From Roseburia sp. (GTDB taxonomy: Bacteria; Bacillota; Clostridia; Oscillospirales; Ruminococcaceae), in the NCBI GenBank assembly GCA_023666265.1, contig JAMPCH010000026.1, positions 1-38,424 on the forward strand: DNA of 38,424 nt, written 5' to 3'. The notes under the pieces were generated by a model, which had not been told where the DNA came from, did no database searches, and saw only the letters and a program-made list of their open reading frames with translations. Both the position numbers and the translations under genes were made by a program. Below are positions 1,428 to 21,221 of the stretch, piece by piece. Numbering within the stretch: the first letter of the stretch is position 1; each line of letters opens with the position of its first letter.

Positions 1428-2159
1428 ATGAAAATACTGATCATTCGTCACGGAGACCCCGATTATACGGTCGATTCGCTGACCGAGAAGGGGAGGGTAG
1501 AGGCGGCGCTTTTAGCGGAGCGGATCGCGCCCCTATCGGTGAAGGACTACTACGTTTCGCCCTTGGGTCGGGCGCGGGATACCGCCGAGGCGACCCTAAA
1601 AAAGGCGGGGCGGACGGCGGAGACCCTCCCGTGGCTGAAGGAATTCAACGTCGACGTGACCGATCCCGTTACGGGCGAGGTACGGGGTCTCCCGTGGGAC
1701 TTCCCGCCCGAGGAATGGACGGTCGTCCCCGAATATTACGATAAAAGCCTGTGGTACGACGTTCCCTATATGCGCTCGGGGAATATGCGCGAAAGGCTCG
1801 CGGAGGTATGGGACGGGCTCGACATGATCTTCGAGCGCCACGGCTATCGGCGCGAGGGGAATTTATACCGCGCGGTACGCCTGAACGAGGATCGGATCGT
1901 CTTTTTTTGTCATTTCGGCGTCCAATGCGTGATGCTCGGTCACCTCCTCGGGATCTCGCCGATGATCCTATGGCATGGACTGATCACCGCCCCGACCGCC
2001 GTCACGACGCTCTGCTCCGAGGAGCGGAGGGAAGGCGCGGCTTTTTTCCGCGCGAGCGCGATCGGCGATATTTCTCACCTTTACTCCCGCGGCGAAGAAC
2101 CCGCCTTCGCGGGGCGCTTTTGCGAGATGTTCTCAAACGCGAATCAGCGGCATGACTGA
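1428..2159 (+). CDS. histidine phosphatase superfamily protein (phosphoglycerate-mutase-like)
   Basis: About 243 residues. The N-terminus MKILIIRHGDPDY holds the RHG motif with the catalytic phospho-accepting histidine at residue 8. YYVSPLGRARDTAEA near residue 50 is the usual SPL-x-RAxxTAE segment that binds phosphate. The second catalytic histidine lies in FFCHFGVQCVML (residues about 162-173), where the typical HGG is HFG. Enzymes of this branch remove phosphate from small molecules or proteins; the substrate is not predictable. I chose ATG 1428, with AAAGG at 1413-1417 ten bases upstream, over an in-frame TTG at 1419 that would sit on top of that site. It is monocistronic between its promoter and a terminator that belongs to the opposite-strand kinase. 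Confidence 0.85.
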   Translation: MKILIIRHGDPDYTVDSLTEKGRVEAALLAERIAPLSVKDYYVSPLGRARDTAEATLKKAGRTAETLPWLKEFNVDVTDPVTGEVRGLPWDFPPEEWTVVPEYYDKSLWYDVPYMRSGNMRERLAEVWDGLDMIFERHGYRREGNLYRAVRLNEDRIVFFCHFGVQCVMLGHLLGISPMILWHGLITAPTAVTTLCSEERREGAAFFRASAIGDISHLYSRGEEPAFAGRFCEMFSNANQRHD

Positions 2160-2182
2160 ATTATGCTTCGGCGGAAGAAGTC

Positions 2183-2219
2183 AAAAACGCCGTCTTGCGT
2201 TCTTTCGCAAGGCGGCGTT
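2183..2219 (-). terminator. terminator of the LytTR/GHKL operon
   Basis: A 14-nt stem arm at 2186-2199 pairs with 2206-2219 around a short loop. Read on the minus strand it ends in GTTTTTGAC, seven bases past the kinase stop. On the plus strand it may also stop the histidine phosphatase transcript. Confidence 0.8.
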
Positions 2220-2225
2220 ATCTCA

Positions 2226-2960
2226 TCAAGCCCCATAAAGCGGGATCATGATCTCCGTCGCGAAGATCCCCTCCTCGTTCTGACGGTTCACATACCCGCC
2301 GTATTTTTTTACCACGCGGTCAATCCTAAAGATCCCATAGCCGTGTTCGCCCGCCTTGGTCGAGCGGTAAGCGCCCTTTTCCTTCCGAACCCTCCCCGCA
2401 GCGTTTTGTACCGAGAGATAGAGCTGACCCTTTAGCTTCCCGATATAGACGCGGAGAAAGCGCTCCTCCTCGGGGAGAGCGCCGCACGCCTCGATCGCGT
2501 TGTCGAGCATATTCCCGAGTACGGAACAAAGCTCGACGTCGCTCATCGGGAGGCGGTCGGGGACGTTCGCCTTGACGTTCGGGCGGACGTTCATTTTTCG
2601 CGCGACATTCAGCTTACTGTTGAGGATCGCGTCCGCCATGACGTTTCCCGTCTTTATGACGGTGTCGACCGTATTGAGGTCGTCCGCGAGCTGGTCGAGA
2701 TAGCGGTCGAGTCCGTCATAGTCCTTCTCCGAGAGGCGGATCTTCATATTTTGGATATGATTTCGATAATCGTGACGCCAGCCCCTGACTTGGCGATACA
2801 TATTTTGGATCTCTCTGACCTGCTTCTCGATCAGCTCGCTCTGAAAGCGCTCGATCCGTTGGTCGATCGCACGATAAAACAGGCGGCGAAAAAGGACGAC
2901 AGCGCCCGCCGTCAGCACGCCTGCCATAAATAAAATAACAAAAAATAAGATCGGGTTCAT
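2226..2960 (-). CDS. sensor histidine kinase with GHKL ATPase domain (AgrC/NatK type)
   Basis: 244 residues with a single N-terminal membrane helix (about residues 4-25), then a coiled-coil helix (30-60). The H-box WRHDYRNHIQ (His63 or His68) is typical of kinases paired with LytTR regulators. The ATP-binding domain has an N-box NMLDNAIEAC (about 150-159) and a G-box GEHGYGIFRID (about 204-213). There is no large multi-span sensor region as in AgrC, so it likely senses through its single helix, another membrane protein or the cytoplasm. Its ATG overlaps the stop of the upstream regulator by ATGA, so the two are translationally coupled. No peptide-pheromone gene was seen beside it, so a quorum-sensing role is not supported. 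Confidence 0.88.
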   Translation of the reverse strand: MNPILFFVILFMAGVLTAGAVVLFRRLFYRAIDQRIERFQSELIEKQVREIQNMYRQVRGWRHDYRNHIQNMKIRLSEKDYDGLDRYLDQLADDLNTVDTVIKTGNVMADAILNSKLNVARKMNVRPNVKANVPDRLPMSDVELCSVLGNMLDNAIEACGALPEEERFLRVYIGKLKGQLYLSVQNAAGRVRKEKGAYRSTKAGEHGYGIFRIDRVVKKYGGYVNRQNEEGIFATEIMIPLYGA

Positions 2961-3664
2961 GGCTCGTCCCTCGTATAAAAGTCGATAAATCGGTCGTTTA
3001 CGTCCTTATAGAGCCGCCGCGAAAGCGGTAGCTCGCCGCCGCCGTCGGGTAAGACCGCCGTCCGCGAGATCGCGCGGATATAGCGAAGCCCGACGAGGTA
3101 GGAGCGGTGACAGCGGATCAGCCCCCCGACCCCCTCAAACCGCCCGAGCGGCATATCACAGGGGAGGACGCGCCCGTCCGCGAGGTGAAGCTCCGTCCGC
3201 CGCCCGAAAGCCTCGACGTAAACGATCTCGTCCGCCGCGATATGGAGGCTCGTTCTGTCCGACGAGACGATAAGCTCCTCGGCGCTCTCGCGGCGGGCGG
3301 CGGCTCGTTCGAGGACGGAGAACAGGCGCTCGCGCTCGACGGGCTTTAAAAGATAATGGAGCGCTCTCACGTCATAGCCCTCCGCCATATAGTCGGAATA
3401 GCCCGTAATAAAGGCGATCGGGAGGAGGTCGCCCGCCGCGCGGAGCTTTTTGGCGAGCGCCATACCGCCGAGCCCGCGCATCTCGATGTCGAGGAGGAGC
3501 AGGTCACAGGGGCGGTCGGGATAGGCGAACAAAAACTCCTCCGCGCTCTCATAGCCGACAATATCGACCGCGAACGGCGCACCCGACGACCATTCGCCGA
3601 TCAGCCGCCGAAGGTTCGCGATCTGCTCCGCCTCGTCGTCGCAGAGCGCGACGGTAAAAGCCAT
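2957..3664 (-). CDS. LytTR-family response regulator
   Basis: 235 residues. The receiver domain (1-120) has acidic pocket residues Asp9/Asp10 in ALCDDEAEQ, the phospho-acceptor Asp59 in DLLLLDIEM, and Lys107 in HYLLKPVE. The LytTR DNA-binding domain follows (about 130-230), recognisable from EIVYVEAFGRRTELH, a CHRSYLVGLRYI segment and a terminal SRRLYKDVNDRFIDFY. Such regulators bind direct repeats upstream of virulence, bacteriocin or cell-envelope genes. The chosen start at 3664 has GAGGGGG just upstream; a longer in-frame extension to 3709 lacks a ribosome site and would overlap the promoter. It heads a two-gene operon with the GHKL kinase. The targets are not evident in the window. Confidence 0.9.
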   Translation of the reverse strand: MAFTVALCDDEAEQIANLRRLIGEWSSGAPFAVDIVGYESAEEFLFAYPDRPCDLLLLDIEMRGLGGMALAKKLRAAGDLLPIAFITGYSDYMAEGYDVRALHYLLKPVERERLFSVLERAAARRESAEELIVSSDRTSLHIAADEIVYVEAFGRRTELHLADGRVLPCDMPLGRFEGVGGLIRCHRSYLVGLRYIRAISRTAVLPDGGGELPLSRRLYKDVNDRFIDFYTRDEP

Positions 3665-3699
3665 TTTGCCACCCCCTCTGTTCCTTTCGGCGTATCTCC

Positions 3700-3728
3700 A
3701 GTATACCATAAAGCGGCGAAAAAATCAA
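3700..3728 (-). promoter_or_regulatory. sigma-A promoter of the LytTR/GHKL operon
   Basis: On the minus strand TTGATT (3723-3728) and TATACT (3700-3705) are 17 bp apart, 36 bp upstream of the regulator start. It separates this operon from the Bce-like module transcribed from the same strand. Confidence 0.75.
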
Positions 3729-3737
3729 CTTTTTTTG

Positions 3738-3755
3738 TTTTATTTTTGGGGAAGG
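3738..3755 (+). repeat. intergenic box, copy 1 (TTTTATTTTTGGGGAAGG)
   Basis: One of about eight intergenic copies of a T-rich block, ATTTT, then GGG(G)AAGGCG. This copy lies between the microprotein stop (3771) and the next promoter. Read on the minus strand it is CCTTCCCC followed by an A-rich block, 16 bases after the stop. Confidence 0.5.
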
Positions 3756-3770
3756 GGATACTCGGCGAGC

Positions 3771-3935
3771 CTACATCGTCCCGCCCCCGCCGATCAGCTC
3801 CGCGAGCTTATCCGACCCGCGCCATACGAGCGCGATGAGCGCCGCGAGGAGTCCCGCCGGGATCAACAACAGCACGATCACGGCGAGCCCGACGCGCGGA
3901 ACGATCTCCGATACCTTTTCTCTAAACTTTTTCAT
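3771..3935 (-). CDS. 54-residue single-span membrane microprotein, last gene of the Bce-like module
   Basis: A short frame starting at ATG 3935 and ending at TAG 3771 encodes MKKFREKVSEIVPRVG, then a strongly hydrophobic helix (about residues 17-38, rich in Leu/Ile/Val/Ala), an Arg-Gly turn and a Gly-rich tail. The basic N-terminus suggests an N-in orientation. Its start lies inside the last codons of the upstream lipoprotein gene (14-bp overlap, different frame), which points to translational coupling. Position and coupling suggest it works with the lipoprotein and the ABC transporter, for example by tuning kinase or permease activity. That role is inference; I know of no named family for it. 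Codon use matches neighbouring genes, supporting a real gene. Confidence 0.65.
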   Translation of the reverse strand: MKKFREKVSEIVPRVGLAVIVLLLIPAGLLAALIALVWRGSDKLAELIGGGGTM

Positions 3936-4410
3936 TTTCGGTTTCTACCGCGAGCGCGACCCTCCCGGTAAAATTCTCTCCTTTCAGTATGATAAAATTA
4001 TCCCCGGCGCTTACGCTGAATTCGTACACGCCTTCGGCGTCCCCGACGGCGATCTCATATTCGTGTTCGCCGTCGACCCGATAGAGGCGGACGCTGCCGC
4101 CCTCCGCCCCGATCGTATACGCGACCGTCATTTTTTCGCCTTCGCGTAGGAGCGACGTCCCGCCGAATAAATATTCTTCCCCGTTATAGCGGCTGTATTC
4201 GGCGAAATAGCTCCCGTTATAGTCGTCCTCGCCCGTCTCGCGCGTTCCCTTGAGCCATAGATCACCCGTCAGCGCGCATTTCCCGACAAACTCGACCGCG
4301 CCGTTAAACGCGCCGATGAGATCGTCCTTCCATTCCTCGAGCGTCTCCGACGAACAGGCGGAGAGGAGCAGGATCGGGGCGACGAACGCGAGAATTTTTT
4401 TCTTTTTCAC
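3922..4410 (-). CDS. lipoprotein co-transcribed with the Bce-like transporter
   Basis: 162 residues starting at a GTG with AGGTGAGG upstream. The signal peptide has four lysines, a hydrophobic core and the lipobox LLSAC (Cys19), so the mature protein should be lipid-anchored outside the membrane. After an acidic helix-prone stretch (EEWKDDLIGAFNGAVEFVG), the rest looks like a small beta-domain: GSVRLYRVDGEHEYEIAVG, VYEFSVSAGDNFIILKG, GRVALAVE. The gene begins ten bases after the permease stop with no terminator, so it should share that transcript, and it overlaps the microprotein gene. A lipoprotein is not one of the four standard Bce components. It may bind the antibiotic peptide or a lipid-linked target at the membrane surface. 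Specific function unknown. Confidence 0.8.
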   Translation of the reverse strand: MKKKKILAFVAPILLLSACSSETLEEWKDDLIGAFNGAVEFVGKCALTGDLWLKGTRETGEDDYNGSYFAEYSRYNGEEYLFGGTSLLREGEKMTVAYTIGAEGGSVRLYRVDGEHEYEIAVGDAEGVYEFSVSAGDNFIILKGENFTGRVALAVETENEKV

Positions 4411-4420
4411 CGCGCCTCAC

Positions 4421-6442
4421 CTACCTTCTTACGATCCGATAATACGCCCGCGCCGTAAAGGAATAGATCAGCCCGTAGATCAGCGTAAATATCAAAAAAC
4501 AGCCGACCGTACATAAAATATAAAGCGAGGTATTCGTGAGCTGAAACAGGGTCAGGATTCGCGCGATCATCGGGAAGGCGAAAAGGACATGGACGCCCGC
4601 AGTCAGGAGCGGGAGAAAGAAGACGGTCAGGACCTGAGAGCGGATCGTCCCCTTTACCTCGCGGGCGCTCATACCGACCTTTTGCATGATCTCAAAGCGC
4701 TCCTGATCGTCGTAGCCCTCCGAGATCTGTTTATAATAGATAATTAAAACGGTCGCCATGATAAAGAGCAGCCCGAGGAATATCCCGAGGAAAAAGAAGC
4801 TCCCGTACAGTCCGTAAAGCTCGCTCCGCTCCGCCTCGCGAGAGGTGAGGCGATAGCTCCCGAGCGCATAGGGGGCTTCCTCGCCGAGCGCCGCCCTCCG
4901 CTCGTTAAAATAGTCAAAGAGGCGGTCGTTTAAGCGGATCTGTTCCTCCGCCGTCAGCTCCGTGTCAAATTGATAGCGATAGGTGAGACTGCTCGCCGAT
5001 TCCTCATAGACCTCTTTTTGGAGAAGGTCGAGCTTCTCGAGGGTCGCGCGATCCTTTACGACCAGTCCGTAGACCGGCACCATATAGGCGCTCAGCTCGC
5101 CGTCGAGGACGTAGGCGTCCGTTTTTTCGACGACCCGATAATCCTCGTCAAAGAGCCGTAGGGTATCCCCGCGAAATTCGCTCCGATTTGTGTAGAGGAG
5201 GACTTCGTTCTCGGCGAGCGAGGTCGCCCGCCCCGTATTTTTTTCATAATCCTCGGCGGTGATCGCGTAGATGATCCCGTATTGATCCGAGATGATGCTT
5301 CCGGGCGCTTTTACGATAAATTCGCCGTCGCCCTCGCGATAGACCGCCGTAAACTCGAGCGAGGTATACGACGATTCGTTTAAGACGTTTATGCCCTCGG
5401 CTTTTACGCCCTCGCGGATCAGCTCCTCGGCGAGGGCGCGACCCTCCTCCGTCCGCGCGTGGCTCACCATCGTGATCTCATAGGGATAGCGCTGTAAAAG
5501 GATGTCCTCGACCCCGATCATTAGCGCGCTCGTCGACGAGACCATAACGAGTACCATCGTCGAGAGGATACAGATATTCGCCAGCCCGACCGCGTTTTGT
5601 TTCATACGATAGATCATACCCGATACGCCGATAAAGTGGTTCGGCTTATAATAATAGCGTCGGTTCTTTTTTAAGAGCTTTAAGAGCGCGATACTCCCCG
5701 CCATAAACAGTAAGTAAGTCCCCCCGATGACGAGTAAGACCGCGACAAAAAACAGCGCGAGCGCGTCGACCGGGTTCTCGATCCTGAGCGCGAGGGTATA
5801 ACCGCCCCCGAGGAAGGCAACCCCGAGGAGCGCCGAGATCCATTTTATCTTCGGCTCTTTTTCGCCGACGCTCCCGCCCCGTAAAAGCTCGATCGGCTTT
5901 ACGAAGGAGACCGCGCGGAGCGAGTTTAAGAGGATCAGGACAAAAAGGATCGTAAACAGGATCAGCGTATAGCGGATCGCGTCGGCGGAGATATAATAGT
6001 CGAGCGTGACCTCGACGCGGACGATCTTCGCGATCGTAAGATACATCAGCTTATCGAGGAGAAGCCCCGCCCCAAGCCCGCCGATAAAGCTTAAGATCGC
6101 GGTATAAAGGCTCTCACAGGCGATGAGGCGGGATAAATGACGCTTCTCCATACCGAGGATCTGATATAAGCCGAATTCCTTCTTACGGTTCTTCATAAGA
6201 AAGCTGTTGGTATAAAACAGGAAGATAAAGGCAAAGACCGCGATCACGTTACTTCCGAGCATGAGCGTTACCGAGACGACGTTCCCGCCCATCACCGCGT
6301 CCAGCCCCTCGTTCAGCGAGAGAGACTTCATAATATAATACATCGCGATCGTCAGCATACAGGTCAAAAGATAGGGGAGATAGACCCGCGCGTTCTTTTT
6401 CATATTCACCGCCGCGAGACGAAAATAAAACAGCTTTTTCAT
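4421..6442 (-). CDS. BceB-like ABC transporter permease (FtsX family)
   Basis: 673 residues. Hydrophobic segments fit the ten-helix BceB plan: one near 18-40, three around 50-180, more near 200-310, then a large extracytoplasmic domain (about 320-560), and a C-terminal FtsX bundle (about 565-670). The segment KNRKKEFGLYQILGMEKRHL (about 85-105) is the typical cytoplasmic coupling motif, repeated at the C-terminal side by QERFEIMQKVGMSAREVKG. These permeases remove peptide antibiotics from lipid II cycle intermediates and also act as sensors with the partner kinase. The start overlaps the ATPase stop as ATGA. The neighbouring regulator, kinase and ATPase complete a Bce-type module; which peptide it detects cannot be read from sequence. 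Confidence 0.9.
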   Translation of the reverse strand: MKKLFYFRLAAVNMKKNARVYLPYLLTCMLTIAMYYIMKSLSLNEGLDAVMGGNVVSVTLMLGSNVIAVFAFIFLFYTNSFLMKNRKKEFGLYQILGMEKRHLSRLIACESLYTAILSFIGGLGAGLLLDKLMYLTIAKIVRVEVTLDYYISADAIRYTLILFTILFVLILLNSLRAVSFVKPIELLRGGSVGEKEPKIKWISALLGVAFLGGGYTLALRIENPVDALALFFVAVLLVIGGTYLLFMAGSIALLKLLKKNRRYYYKPNHFIGVSGMIYRMKQNAVGLANICILSTMVLVMVSSTSALMIGVEDILLQRYPYEITMVSHARTEEGRALAEELIREGVKAEGINVLNESSYTSLEFTAVYREGDGEFIVKAPGSIISDQYGIIYAITAEDYEKNTGRATSLAENEVLLYTNRSEFRGDTLRLFDEDYRVVEKTDAYVLDGELSAYMVPVYGLVVKDRATLEKLDLLQKEVYEESASSLTYRYQFDTELTAEEQIRLNDRLFDYFNERRAALGEEAPYALGSYRLTSREAERSELYGLYGSFFFLGIFLGLLFIMATVLIIYYKQISEGYDDQERFEIMQKVGMSAREVKGTIRSQVLTVFFLPLLTAGVHVLFAFPMIARILTLFQLTNTSLYILCTVGCFLIFTLIYGLIYSFTARAYYRIVRR

Positions 6443-7203
6443 TTTTCTTCGCCTCCCGACGCGAGTAGGGTCAGCGTATCGGAGATCTTACGGAACATTT
6501 CCTCGTTTGTACAATCCCCCCGATAGAGCTGGTGAAATACCTCGCCGTCTTTTATAAAAAGGACTCTCCCCGATCGGCTCGCCGCCCGCGCCGAGTGGGT
6601 CACCATGAGGATCGTCTGTCCCGCGCGGTTAAGCTCGGCGAAGACCTTTAAAAGCGCGTCCGCCGACTTTGAGTCGAGCGCGCCCGTCGGCTCGTCCGCG
6701 AGGATCAGCTTTGGGTCGGTGATGATCGCGCGGGCGACGGCGGCTCGCTGCTTCTGACCGCCCGAGACCTCATAGGGGAACTTATTTAAAAGCTCGGTCA
6801 ATCCGAGCCTTTTCGCGATCGGCTCTAAGCGCCGCTCCATTTCGACGTATTTCCTCCCCGCGAGGACGAGCGGGAGGAAGATATTGTCCTTTAAGCTGAA
6901 CGAATCGAGGAGGTTAAAATCTTGAAAGACAAAGCCGAGGTTATCGCGCCGAAACGCCGAGAGCTCGCGGTCGCAGACCGAGGCGAGCGAGCGCCCCTCG
7001 AGGAGAACGCCGCCGCCCGTCGGCTTATCGAGCGCCGCCAAAATATTGAGGAGCGTCGTTTTTCCCGAGCCCGACTCCCCCATGATCGAGACGTATTCGC
7101 CGTCCTCGACCGAGAAATTGACATTCGTGAGCGCCCGTACCTGATTGCCGCCGAAGCGCGTCGTATAGACCTTTTCGAGATTTTGTACTTCCAAAAGTGC
7201 CAC
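6439..7203 (-). CDS. BceA-like ABC transporter ATP-binding protein
   Basis: 254 residues. Walker A is MGESGSGKTTLL (about 41-52), the Q-loop lies in FVFQDFNLLDSFS, the signature is VSGGQKQR (146-153), Walker B is LILADEPTGALD (167-178), and the H-loop is MVTHS. This matches the MacB/BceA subfamily that drives FtsX-type permeases. Translation starts at a GTG (7201-7203); AAAGGA lies ten bases upstream, and a nearby ATG is out of frame. The stop overlaps the permease start. It has its own promoter and upstream direct repeats, separating it from the kinase gene, the usual arrangement in which the regulator controls only the transporter genes. Confidence 0.92.
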   Translation of the reverse strand: MALLEVQNLEKVYTTRFGGNQVRALTNVNFSVEDGEYVSIMGESGSGKTTLLNILAALDKPTGGGVLLEGRSLASVCDRELSAFRRDNLGFVFQDFNLLDSFSLKDNIFLPLVLAGRKYVEMERRLEPIAKRLGLTELLNKFPYEVSGGQKQRAAVARAIITDPKLILADEPTGALDSKSADALLKVFAELNRAGQTILMVTHSARAASRSGRVLFIKDGEVFHQLYRGDCTNEEMFRKISDTLTLLASGGEEK

Positions 7204-7241
7204 GTAGGATCATTCCTTTCTTTTTTCTTTTTTGTATCTTT

Positions 7242-7270
7242 ATTGTAGCACGTTTTTGCCTTCAGAAAAA
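7242..7270 (-). promoter_or_regulatory. promoter of the Bce-like transporter operon, weak -35
   Basis: On the minus strand a good -10 TACAAT (7242-7247) is preceded 17 bp upstream by a poor -35 TTTTTC (7265-7270). A weak -35 with direct repeats just upstream is what an activator-dependent promoter looks like. Confidence 0.55.
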
Positions 7271-7279
7271 TTGATTTAC

Positions 7280-7309
7280 GTGACATTTTCGCGAACGAGG
7301 TGACATTTT
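7280..7309 (-). promoter_or_regulatory. candidate binding site of the Bce-type response regulator (direct repeat)
   Basis: Two identical 10-mers, GTGACATTTT on the plus strand (AAAATGTCAC on the minus strand), occupy 7280-7289 and 7300-7309, exactly 20 bp apart. They lie just upstream of the transporter promoter, at roughly -45 to -75. OmpR-family regulators bind such tandem half-sites about two helical turns apart. The match to the neighbouring regulator is inference from position. Confidence 0.65.
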
Positions 7310-7329
7310 TGTAAGATTGGAATACGTTC

Positions 7330-8319
7330 TTATTCTATATCGAGCTTTACGGAGCTGAGGTCGATCGAGACGGTCGTTCCCTCGCCGACCCGAGAGCTGA
7401 CCGAGAGGCGATGACCGAGCTTATCCGCCGTCCGCTTACAAAGATATAGCCCGAGACCCGTCGATTTACGCTCCTTCCTCCCCGATAATCCCGTAAAACC
7501 CTTCTCAAAAATACGCGGGAGATCTTCGGCGGCGATCCCGATCCCGGTATCCGCGATCGTTAAGACCCGATCCTCGCCAAAGGCGATCGTGACCGATCCG
7601 TGATTTGTGTATTTGATCGCGTTTGAGAGGAGCTGTTCGATCAGGAATAAGAGCCATTTCTCGTCGCTGACGACCGCCGCGTCCGTCTCGTGATAGACGA
7701 GACGGATCTTTCGGCGGATAAAAAGCGGCGCATAGCTGTGGATCGCCTGTTTTACGACGCGGTCGAGCGGAAACTCCCGAATGACAAGGTCGGAGGTGGG
7801 GCTGTCGAGCCGAAGGTAGTTGAGCGCCATTTGGGCGTATTCCTCGATCCGAAACAGCTCGGCGGAAAGCTCGCGGTTCGTCTCGGTATCCTCCGACTGG
7901 AGGATCATTCGCATGGCGGCGATCGGCGTTTTGATCTGGTGGAGCCAGACGGTGTAATATTCGAGGCTGTCCCGCCGCTCGGCGCTGAGCGCGGCGATAT
8001 TTCGCTTACTGATCTCGCCGAGGCGCGAGATGATCGCGCATAAGGCTTTCTCCTCGGGGTCGAGGGCGGGCGGGAGCAGGTCGGTCATCAGCGGGAGGTT
8101 CGCCTCAATGTCGCGAAGGAGGAGGCTGCGCCTCCTGTACAAAACGAAACGGACGAGGATCGCGATCAACCCGACGGCGGCGCAGATCAGCGCCGTATAA
8201 AGGATCGGCTCGAGCGATACGTCATAGAGATAAAAGACCCCCGCCGCGACGGCGAGAAACAACAGCCACACGGCGGCGACCCGCCGAAAGGAATAGAGAT
8301 ACTCAAAAAACAGCTTCAT
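7330..8319 (-). CDS. BceS-like intramembrane-sensing histidine kinase
   Basis: 329 residues. Two membrane helices (about 14-32 and 38-60) are separated by only a few residues, the hallmark of intramembrane-sensing kinases that take their signal from the transporter instead of an external domain. The H-box is WLHQIKTPI with His127, the N-box EQLLSNAIKYT (Asn233), G1 ADTGIGI, the F-box region RIFEKGFTG, and G2 STGLGLYLCK. It follows the regulator with an 11-bp gap, and the ATPase gene lies 126 bp further downstream. In known Bce systems the BceAB complex activates this kinase in proportion to transport load. Confidence 0.92.
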   Translation of the reverse strand: MKLFFEYLYSFRRVAAVWLLFLAVAAGVFYLYDVSLEPILYTALICAAVGLIAILVRFVLYRRRSLLLRDIEANLPLMTDLLPPALDPEEKALCAIISRLGEISKRNIAALSAERRDSLEYYTVWLHQIKTPIAAMRMILQSEDTETNRELSAELFRIEEYAQMALNYLRLDSPTSDLVIREFPLDRVVKQAIHSYAPLFIRRKIRLVYHETDAAVVSDEKWLLFLIEQLLSNAIKYTNHGSVTIAFGEDRVLTIADTGIGIAAEDLPRIFEKGFTGLSGRKERKSTGLGLYLCKRTADKLGHRLSVSSRVGEGTTVSIDLSSVKLDIE

Positions 8320-8331
8320 CGCGTTCCTCCG

Positions 8332-9003
8332 TTATTCGACTAAATAACCCGCGCCGACCTTGGTCTTGATGAGGTCGCCGAGACCGACCGCCTCGAGCTT
8401 TTTCCTAAGCCGCGCGACGTTGACCGAGAGGGTGTTTTCCTCGACGTAACAGTCGATCTGCCAAAGGCGGGTCATGAGCGTGTCGCGGCTCACGATCTTT
8501 CCCCGGTTCTCCATGAGGGTCTGTAAAACGCGAAACTCGTTTTTCGTCAGCTCGAGCCGCTCCCCGCGATAGGTGAGCGACGCGTCGTTGAGGTTCAAGA
8601 CCGCGCCCCGATGCTCGAGGACGGGGATCTTACTCCCCATATCATACGTGCGGCGGAGGAGCGCCCCGATCTTAGCGGTCAGGACGTTGAGGTCGACGGG
8701 CTTGGGGATAAAGTCGTCCCCGCCCATATTCATCGCCATAACGATATTCATATTGTCCGCCGCCGAGGAGAGGAAGACGACGGGGACCTCGGAAATTTTA
8801 CGGATCTCGGCGCACCAATGATACCCGTTAAAAAAAGGGAGCATAAGGTCGATCAAGACCATATGGGGGTCAAACGCGGCAAATTCGTCGACCGCGTCGC
8901 GAAAGTCCTCCGTCGTTTTCACGAGATAGCCCCAGCCCTCGAGATGCTCCTTGATACGCGAGGCGATCGTGTGATCGTCCTCGATCAGATAGATCTTATA
9001 CAT
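8332..9003 (-). CDS. BceR-like OmpR-family response regulator
   Basis: 223 residues. The receiver domain has Glu8/Asp9/Asp10 in LIEDDH, the phospho-acceptor Asp52 in MVLIDLMLP, Thr/Ser and Lys in VVFLSSAAD and FIPKPVD. The C-terminal winged helix (about 125-223) includes LTKNEFRVLQTLMENRGKIV and a recognition region VNVARLRKKLE. The ATG at 9003 has AAGGAG upstream. It heads the kinase gene and most likely activates the transporter promoter through the direct repeats at 7280-7309. A TATAAT on the minus strand at 9098-9103 overlaps the -35 of the divergent HAD promoter and could serve this gene, but no good -35 accompanies it. Confidence 0.92.
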   Translation of the reverse strand: MYKIYLIEDDHTIASRIKEHLEGWGYLVKTTEDFRDAVDEFAAFDPHMVLIDLMLPFFNGYHWCAEIRKISEVPVVFLSSAADNMNIVMAMNMGGDDFIPKPVDLNVLTAKIGALLRRTYDMGSKIPVLEHRGAVLNLNDASLTYRGERLELTKNEFRVLQTLMENRGKIVSRDTLMTRLWQIDCYVEENTLSVNVARLRKKLEAVGLGDLIKTKVGAGYLVE

Positions 9004-9027
9004 TTTTTCGGCTCTCCTTTTTTTCTT

Positions 9028-9046
9028 TTTTTATTTTGGGAAGGCG
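9028..9046 (+). repeat. intergenic box, copy 2 (TTTTTATTTTGGGAAGGCG)
   Basis: Copy of the recurrent intergenic box, here in the divergent region between the response regulator and the HAD gene. On the minus strand it directly precedes the regulator's ribosome site. Confidence 0.5.
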
Positions 9047-9103
9047 CAAAGGGCGGCGGGCTTTCAAAAAGATCCCCGTTCTTTATTTTGTGGAGAGATT
9101 ATA

Positions 9104-9132
9104 TTGACAAATTCTCAAAAATAAGGTATAAT
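9104..9132 (+). promoter_or_regulatory. consensus sigma-A promoter for HAD-degV
   Basis: TTGACA (9104-9109), a 17-bp spacer, and TATAAT (9127-9132): a perfect consensus in an AT-rich stretch. The predicted transcript starts near 9139 and leaves a leader of about 120 bases before the HAD gene. Confidence 0.88.
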
Positions 9133-9261
9133 TAAAATATAATTTAAAAAGCTTGCCTTCGCGCTCGTTACATTATATGGTATCACGGTTTCCAAAAAAT
9201 GTCAAGCGCGATACGGCGAAAGCACGCCTACCATAAACAAAAAAGGAAAGGGGAGATCGGT

Positions 9262-9990
9262 TTGTCGCTCAAGGCGATACTTTTTGATCTGGACGGGACG
9301 CTCCTCCCGATGGATAACGATGGATTTACCGAGGAGTACTTCCGCCTTCTCGCCGCGAAAGCGGCGCCTTACGGCTATGAGCCGAAGGGGCTTATAAAAG
9401 CGGTCTGGGCGGGGACGGAGGATATGATCAAAAACGACGGACGAGAGACGAACGAGATAGTTTTTCGCCGCCGCTTCGCCTCGATCTACGGCGAGGAAAA
9501 ATTAAGCGATTTTACGATCTTTGACGAGTTTTATCGCCTCGAATTTTTGGGGACGCGCCGCGCCTGCGGCTATGATCCGCTCGCCGCCGAGACGGTACGC
9601 GGGCTTAAAGAGCGAGGGCTAACGGTCGCGCTCGCGACGAACCCGATCTTCCCGAGAGAGGCGATCGAGACGCGCGTTCGCTGGGCGGGACTCGAGCCGA
9701 GCGATTTCGCCTATATCACGAGCTATGAAAACAGCCGCTTTTGTAAGCCGAACCCGGACTACTTTCGCGCCGTCGCGGAGGAGATCGGCGTTCACCCGTC
9801 GGACTGTCTCATGGTCGGGAACGACGTAAGCGACGACGGCGCGGCGAAAAAGGCGGGGATGACGGTATTTTTTATGACCGCCTGTCTCATCAATCACGAA
9901 AATCGACCGATCTCCGACGAGCCGCAAGGCGGCTTCCCGGAATTATCAAAATACATAGAGCTTCGCTCAAAGAAAGGATTGACCGTATGA
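9262..9990 (+). CDS. HAD-superfamily hydrolase
   Basis: About 242 residues from a TTG start at 9262, chosen because GGGGAG (9250-9255) sits six bases upstream and the protein then begins with the core strand KAILFDLDGTLLPMD. An upstream in-frame ATG at 9199 lacks a ribosome site. Motif I has the nucleophile Asp9 and acid/base Asp11, motif II is VALATNP, motif III a Lys in KPNPDYF, and motif IV MVGNDVSDDGAAKKAG. The family hydrolyses phosphate esters or phosphonates; the cap lies between residues about 18 and 100. Substrate unknown. It overlaps degV by ATGA, so the two are co-translated. Confidence 0.85.
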   Translation: MSLKAILFDLDGTLLPMDNDGFTEEYFRLLAAKAAPYGYEPKGLIKAVWAGTEDMIKNDGRETNEIVFRRRFASIYGEEKLSDFTIFDEFYRLEFLGTRRACGYDPLAAETVRGLKERGLTVALATNPIFPREAIETRVRWAGLEPSDFAYITSYENSRFCKPNPDYFRAVAEEIGVHPSDCLMVGNDVSDDGAAKKAGMTVFFMTACLINHENRPISDEPQGGFPELSKYIELRSKKGLTV

Positions 9991-13620: not shown

Positions 13621-13660
13621 GTGCTAAATTACGCCCTCGTCGGAAACGTCGCTCGCCTTT

Positions 13661-13835
13661 AAGGCTACACCGTACAATGATTGGCGTACAGATGTGCGGC
13701 AGATTTTTCGTCAGATTGTACAGAATTTTTGCAGGAAGGCTGACGCCTTTCAAAAAAATTCTGTGCAATATGGCGGAAAAGATGTCGTGCAGCTGTGCGT
13801 CAAAGGCGTAGCCAGTCATTGTGCGGTGTTGCCTT
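13661..13835. mobile_element. MITE-like palindromic element, copy A (175 bp)
   Basis: The whole segment is an imperfect inverted repeat. The left end AAGGCTACACCGTACAATGA matches the reverse complement of the right end (AAGGCAACACCGCACAATGA), and the inner arms both carry a TTG(T/C)ACAGAATTTTT block. The arms meet at a short loop near 13747. No coding sequence. A second, enlarged copy at 20915-21221 shares the same ends and inner arms. The outer ends read TTAAGGC...GCCTTAA. This is the form of a non-autonomous miniature transposon or a large intergenic palindrome. No transposase was seen in the window. Confidence 0.75.
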
Positions 13836-20874: not shown

Positions 20875-20914
20875 TGATTTGTCCAAGAAATGACAATTTG
20901 GAACGGAACTGTCT

Positions 20915-21221
20915 TTAGACTACACCGCACAATGATTGGCGTACAGATGTGCGGCAGAAATTTCTCTAACATTCGCTTTGCTTTGCGCCGCGTCCGTGCG
21001 GCACTTGGGGCGAATGTTACGCAACATCCTGTTGCGGTCAGATTGTACAGAATTTTTGCAGGAAGGCTGTTCTTTCGGTCAGCCCCTCTGGCTGGCTCTG
21101 CCAGCCACCTCCCCCGCCCGGGGGAGACCACCTTTCAAAAAAATTCTGTGCAATATGGCGGAAAAGATGTCGTGCAGCTGTGCGTCAAAGGCGTAGCCGG
21201 TCATTGCGCGGTGTTGCCTTT
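20915..21221. mobile_element. MITE-like palindromic element, copy B (about 307 bp, with nested palindromes)
   Basis: Same ends and inner arms as copy A. It is enlarged by two inserts. The left-arm insert (about 20958-21037) is itself bounded by AACATTCGC and GCGAATGTT. The loop insert (about 21073-21134) holds GGCTGGCTCTGCCAGCC and CTCCCCCGCCCGGGGGAG palindromes, of a type widespread in gut Firmicutes. The right end coincides with the GH31 stop codon: the TAA uses the element's last base. No open frame of note. Confidence 0.75.

Follow-up and report, generated by a model that had tools for sequence, protein, structure and literature searches.

What do two extra small genes do behind the transporter of a Bce-type peptide-antibiotic module? 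The question is raised by a 38,424-nucleotide stretch of DNA from Roseburia sp. (class Clostridia; the window; GenBank assembly GCA_023666265.1, contig JAMPCH010000026.1), numbered C18 among the 98 contigs of a 2.81 Mb genome. Positions 3771-9003 of its minus strand hold six genes, recognised from their open reading frames (ORFs): a response regulator, a histidine kinase (HK), an ATPase, a permease, a lipoprotein and a one-helix membrane microprotein. In Bce modules the kinase lacks its own sensor domain, and the transporter both senses and detoxifies (PMC10858260); the peptides concerned bind lipid intermediates of cell-wall synthesis (PMC10314905), and target protection is the proposed mode of action of such transporters (PMC7038271). 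Permeases of this type have a large extracellular domain between helices 7 and 8. The six-gene set is a Bce/Psd-type module with two accessory small genes. That it detoxifies peptide antibiotics with both small proteins as accessory subunits, by the full mechanism proposed below, we regard as moderately probable.

The OmpR-family response regulator (BceR/PsdR-like; 8332-9003, minus strand, as are all other genes and sites of the window described here) matches Pfam Response_reg (E 1.1e-21) and Trans_reg_C (4e-24). The kinase (7330-8319) is of the intramembrane-sensing, BceS-like type. It matches HATPase_c (1.9e-22), its best NCBIfam match is SapS (5.2e-64, under that model's cut-off), and its translation shows, by eye, two hydrophobic segments joined by a loop only a few residues long; the Pfam search found no sensor domain in it, which fits the lack of an extracellular sensor domain in Bce-type kinases. 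Next come a BceA/PsdA-like ATPase (6439-7203; ABC_tran, 1.7e-34) and a BceB/PsdB-like permease (4421-6442) with FtsX in two stretches (1e-15), which among solved structures in the PDB lies nearest to PsdB (9ugg, E 8.1e-43) and then to BceB (7tcg, E 2e-30). Regulator, kinase, ATPase and FtsX-type permease are thus encoded together, as befits the Bce type. The locus resembles BceRS-AB and PsdRS-AB of Bacillus subtilis and other Firmicutes in these four parts and in having the same kind of operator before the ATPase gene, but differs by the two extra genes behind the permease. The first-pass annotation had placed the six ORFs, the module parts and the 10-bp gap and 14-bp overlap of the small genes exactly where we find them. 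Its statement that Bce modules are defined by four parts only is out of date, since VraH, GraX, YsaD/YxeA and NSR are published accessory parts (PMC7438565, PMC5786555).

A two-part operator, TTACAAAAATGTCA-N12-AAATGTCA (7281-7314), forms an inverted repeat in the 126-bp gap between the kinase and ATPase genes and is probably the binding site of the response regulator. TTAC-type inverted repeats ahead of the transporter genes are a mark of Bce-type modules, and this one agrees with the published PsdR/ApsR consensus, AnnTTACnAnnnnGTnAG (PMC10858260), save for the last base. It occurs once in its own genome at ≤3 mismatches, with zero control matches. Among 22 loci tried (L and G numbers below denote loci and genomes of the comparison), 19 had a readable HK-ATPase gap and 18 of these contained the inverted repeat: 12 matched the search pattern and six were variants recognised by eye, with L044 the sole exception. 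The literal TTACAAAAATGT was present in three of the five modules that carry the microprotein alone (L201, L203 and L204, not L200 or L202). We rejected the idea that the operator is peculiar to modules with extra genes, as L040, L041 and L049, which have none, also carry it. A -10-like TACAAT (7242-7247), noticed by eye and not reported by the generic promoter scan, is the probable inducible promoter. Given the conserved operator within this gap, the last four genes, from ATPase to microprotein, probably constitute one induced unit, co-transcription being read from the sequence. The earlier claim that neither a terminator nor a promoter separates the small genes from the permease held up: the scan of 2100-9300 gave no minus-strand promoter-like site from 9177 to 3728, and the only two minus-strand terminator-like sites within 3771-7203 (4772-4789 and 5999-6016) both lie inside the permease gene, in a scan that is weak either way (four promoters found against 3.5 expected, and 15 terminators against 8.8, on both strands).

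The lipoprotein gene (3922-4410) starts with GTG, 10 bp past the permease stop, with a Shine-Dalgarno-like GGTGAGG ahead of it (by eye). Its product has a signal peptide, an LSAC lipobox with the cysteine at position 19, a helical stretch modelled at low confidence and, in single-chain structure prediction, a small beta-sandwich domain at residues 56-158. The microprotein gene (3771-3935, 54 residues) starts with ATG 14 bp within the lipoprotein gene; because no Shine-Dalgarno sequence is visible by eye and the two genes overlap, translational coupling is likely.

Both small proteins belong to families that Pfam and NCBIfam leave nameless. For the lipoprotein this holds for the window protein and 20 aligned members, among the matches listed, and neither library gave a protease match at E ≤ 1. 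Glucodextran_B was discarded as an identity, matching only weakly (seven of the 20, best E 0.0034). TIGR01655, the family of the secreted YsaD/YxeA proteins encoded beside YsaCB and YxdLM in Bce-type operons (PMC7438565), is absent from the NCBIfam matches of the window lipoprotein at E ≤ 1 and from the 25 families listed for the 20 aligned members. NsrFP with its protease NSR likewise pairs a Bce-type transporter with a membrane-associated extra resistance protein (PMC5786555); the window lipoprotein differs in lacking a protease match and in being modelled as a small beta-sandwich. The microprotein family, recognised by its alignment and by profile matches behind BceB-like permeases, remained nameless when seven members were searched, and the weak matches to LiaI-LiaF-TM_PspC (one of seven, E 2.7e-4) and CoaP_CTERM (three of seven, best E 0.0035) were set aside as identities. 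An invariant proline lies within the helix in all 16 aligned members. Accessory proteins of Bce modules are already known, and our two small families are not filed under them, since the microprotein lacks the VraH motif and the lipoprotein has no TIGR01655 match. The titles and abstract starts of the open-licence papers listed yielded no report of this lipoprotein, nor of a Bce operon with a GT51 gene.

A profile of the lipoprotein matched 29 of 394 genomes of the order at E ≤ 1e-3. Eight of these genomes were dropped as weak (E 1.9e-4 to 8e-4), mostly covering only the first part of the profile by coordinates, which left 22 strong places in 21 genomes: 11 behind a complete Bce module and seven behind LanE/G-like permeases, with two of the remainder cut by a contig end and one (L105) without Bce or Lan genes. 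In L092 the genes before the lipoprotein are, by eye, a LanF-like ATPase and two ORFs of permease size. In the genome-contig set, which includes many near-copies, 51 of 58 loci were Lan operons (LanFEG/Cpr-type), five Bce and two other; L160 is counted as Lan, the upstream permease there being unrelated. The suggestion that both small genes always sit behind BceAB is not supported, the lipoprotein not being confined to Bce. Being encoded with LanFEG is the mark of LanI-type lipoproteins, and these 51 relatives share it whereas the window lipoprotein does not. Three further genomes among 149 relatives carry the lipoprotein, each directly behind a BceB-like permease; the phylum-wide profile found it in three of 398 genomes (the source genome, G1063 and G1141), and among plasmids one record has a Lan-type lipoprotein and 17 have distant permeases.

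The window lipoprotein is 33-39% identical to Lan-type members, compared with 24-35% to Bce-type members. When 37 lipoproteins were placed on a tree, the 12 Bce members from other loci clustered (100/100), and that of the window fell outside them, beside L092 (93/77), a neighbour typed as Lan by eye alone. Uniting all 13 Bce lipoproteins in one clade was not rejected (approximately unbiased test, p-AU 0.229). From these sequences, the window lipoprotein may have been recruited into its Bce module separately from the others.

LanFEG-type operons with this lipoprotein occur in many gut genera (L138-L166, e.g. L139, L146 and L164), their regulator, kinase and ATPase mostly >90% identical to the L093 counterparts, and recombinase-like ORFs lie close to the Lan-operon copies in L093 and L096 (by eye); this suggests recent spread. 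The lipoprotein of L190 is much shortened and is perhaps a decaying accessory gene.

The microprotein profile, built from seven members, was searched against the same 394 genomes without permease information and gave 24 places, 14 of them strong (E ≤ 1.2e-6; six are seeds). Ten weak places (E 5.1e-4 to 0.0068) were dropped, and the two of these that were read, L123 and L124, have no Bce gene near. Eleven of the 14 strong matches lie behind a BceB-like permease, including six of the eight non-seed matches, directly so (L115, L116 and L118-L121). Regulator, kinase and ATPase genes stand upstream in five of these six loci; none was found in the sixth, L205. In G195 the contig ends within the lipoprotein gene. 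In L117/L206 (G125) a GT51 gene comes directly after the microprotein, and the 10.5 kb read there contain neither Bce nor Lan genes. An ORF in G349 (L122, 1456-1632 minus) has, by eye, the beginning of a response regulator and the end of a microprotein, and is probably a relic left by deletion within a module. Of the contig loci, four of five Bce and none of 51 Lan carry the microprotein, and it is missing from all seven Lan loci of the 394-genome lipoprotein search, so the microprotein goes with Bce and the lipoprotein with both transporter types. A class-wide profile recovered it in four of 391 genomes (the source genome, G150, G219 and one weak match). Two other small ORFs, one of 44 residues and one helix behind the L108 lipoprotein and one of 96 residues starting with TTG in L106, were not counted because the profile misses them.

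Starting from what the sequences show, namely the order of the genes, a conserved operator and two families linked to transporters, we propose a route of induction, a substrate and a molecular role for each small protein. The permease-kinase pair would sense a peptide that binds a lipid II-cycle intermediate, and the regulator, from the operator at 7281-7314, would induce the ATPase-permease-lipoprotein-microprotein unit. Anchored at the surface beside the transporter, the lipoprotein would intercept the peptide or shield its lipid II-cycle target, a role likened to that of LanI-type lipoproteins beside LanFEG. The microprotein, a proline-kinked single helix, would pack on the permease, or on permease and kinase, and adjust activity or specificity in a VraH-like way. 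Since the lipoprotein is found with two transporter classes, and with GT51 behind it in some loci, its ligand is likely to be a peptide or a shared lipid II-cycle intermediate; use by both Bce and Lan transporters suggests a ligand common to the two. As the microprotein goes with Bce permeases, a transporter subunit with a VraH-like role is, by analogy, the simplest reading of it. The closest precedents for the lipoprotein are NisI with NisFEG and CD1348 by CprABC, each a lipoprotein beside a lantibiotic ATP-binding cassette transporter (PMC5786555). The window's lipoprotein family does occur in LanFEG-like operons, but the window transporter is Bce-type and the PDB gave no NisI/SpaI profile match at E ≤ 5; CD1348 is set apart by description only.

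Several observations weigh against this mechanism. The lipoprotein profile retrieved no NisI or SpaI chain from the PDB at E ≤ 5, and its fold match points to no ligand; the fold comparison lists 50 matches, and that neither NisI nor SpaI is one of them is no evidence of absence. Lantibiotics do not induce CD1348, which has no demonstrated role in resistance (PMC5786555); a lipoprotein may thus accompany such a transporter without being an immunity protein. Among 59 distinct permeases, a set enriched for both small genes by the way it was collected, 38 lack a lipoprotein, a microprotein and a GT51 gene alike in the sequence close behind (L136, included here, has a lipoprotein about 350 bp from the permease and no microprotein by profile), showing that a Bce module needs neither small gene. 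Six have the lipoprotein only, six the microprotein only, five both and two both plus GT51, and the last two have GT51 only and the microprotein with a GT51 remnant, respectively. The small genes also part company: six of the 10 other Bce lipoprotein loci from the 394-genome search have no microprotein by profile (in one, L098, just 310 nt follow), and at seven permease loci the microprotein is present but the lipoprotein is not.

When presence of the lipoprotein (14 rows) is mapped onto a tree of 58 permeases, it requires at least nine gains or losses, six of them forced by starred branches, and the window falls in a 14-row group (100/98) of which 11 rows lack all three accessory genes. The first-pass annotation had taken absence or lack of linkage in related genomes as grounds for abandoning its proposal. 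Absence was indeed common. Counting the source genome, 21 genomes of the genus have a strong permease match (E < 1e-100); the lipoprotein was found in two of them (the source genome and G048) and the microprotein in the source genome alone. In G008 and G025, and at the second permease of G015, <300 nt of sequence remain behind the permease. Linkage, the other half of the proposal, was supported where the genes are present, as in all three of the other lipoprotein relatives and six of the eight non-seed microproteins.

A wider proposal takes in the transglycosylase genes of family GT51 (PF00912, 1.6e-66) that occur in some of these operons. The gene comes after the lipoprotein in five of 21 fetched lipoprotein loci (L099, L100, L102, L103 and L107) and in two of the 58 contig loci (L133, which equals L107, and L190). 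GT51 genes sit in both Bce and Lan operons (L102, L103, L107/L133, L190 and L053/L207), and in L053/L207 the gene comes after the permease, lipoprotein and microprotein both being absent. A transglycosylase uses lipid II. We tentatively suggest, as a possibility somewhat less likely than not, an undescribed, interchangeable lipid II-directed accessory kit in Clostridia, in which the lipoprotein would serve Bce and LanFEG/Cpr transporters, here treated as two unrelated classes, the microprotein would be a Bce-only subunit and GT51 would consume freed lipid II. Fragments of a GT51 gene, perhaps decaying, lie behind the microprotein in G235 (L121/L205), and another protein, of 117 residues and with a single hydrophobic segment, is encoded between lipoprotein and GT51 in two Lan-type operons (L102 1984-2337 and L103 6878-7231, operon-strand coordinates).

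One or both small proteins might instead mainly tune signalling, with little direct effect on resistance, as proposed for YsaD of Lactococcus, whose removal altered induction and hardly resistance (PMC7438565). A single kinked helix could pack on kinase or permease helices in such a role. The lipoprotein, however, is also found in Lan-type operons, and sensing in the related Cpr system is assigned to an extracellular loop of the kinase (PMC8003753); as that kinase senses with its own loop, a role in Bce signalling would not explain the lipoprotein there. We therefore judge this account somewhat unlikely. Less convincing again is a lipoprotein that acts on the target side, holding or screening lipid II or helping a transglycosylase to use freed lipid II, and binds no peptide. 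The GT51 genes behind the lipoprotein, in Bce and Lan operons alike, speak for it, but most lipoprotein loci have none, nor has the window, and the single GT51 match of the source genome lies elsewhere, in an 845-residue frame; we think this version unlikely.

That the microprotein is a true orthologue of VraH is improbable. VraH, the small transmembrane component of VraDEH in Staphylococcus aureus (PMC5786555), matters for gallidermin resistance (PMC5786555, PMC7438565). It and the microprotein are of the same size class, with one helix, behind a BceB-type permease, directly so in several microprotein loci; in the window the lipoprotein gene intervenes and, as a further difference, the genes adjoin their own two-component system. 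The conserved C-terminal VraH motif, YYKRREEKGK (PMC5786555), sets the two apart, YYKRR being found in none of the 16 aligned microproteins, a distinction by motif and not by VraH sequence. No VraH-named model appeared among the NCBIfam and Pfam matches of seven members, in libraries not checked for one. Finally, patchy occurrence and the repeated gains or losses on the permease tree would suit two chance neighbours of the transporter, but this is very improbable indeed, as tight linkage of each small protein's relatives to the same kind of transporter recurs across genera and families and makes the association more than chance.

How susceptible commensals are to nisin-like lantibiotics from the gut was not fully accounted for by how many known resistance genes they have, in a study in which none of the listed strains had lanI (PMC10877564). 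The two nameless families are candidates for part of that unexplained susceptibility. If one lipoprotein family does serve both Bce and LanFEG/Cpr transporters, it would offer a shared way into the question of how commensals of the gut withstand nisin-like peptides, and with the microprotein family, Bce transporters would be seen to have single-helix partners beyond staphylococci.

Directly behind the module, the window encodes a LytTR-type regulator and a GHKL-type kinase (2226-3709, minus strand). The promoter scan placed a promoter-like TTGATT-17-TATACT for this pair at 3700-3728, outside the module. Tandem pairs of BceB-like permease genes occur in same-genus genomes (G001:C37 11055-15076 and G015:C47 1610-5632). 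Elsewhere in the window, a dispersed repeat pair at 13659-13835 and 20914-21220, about 7.3 kb apart, comprises 90-nt copies that are 98% alike and 51-nt copies that are 90% alike.

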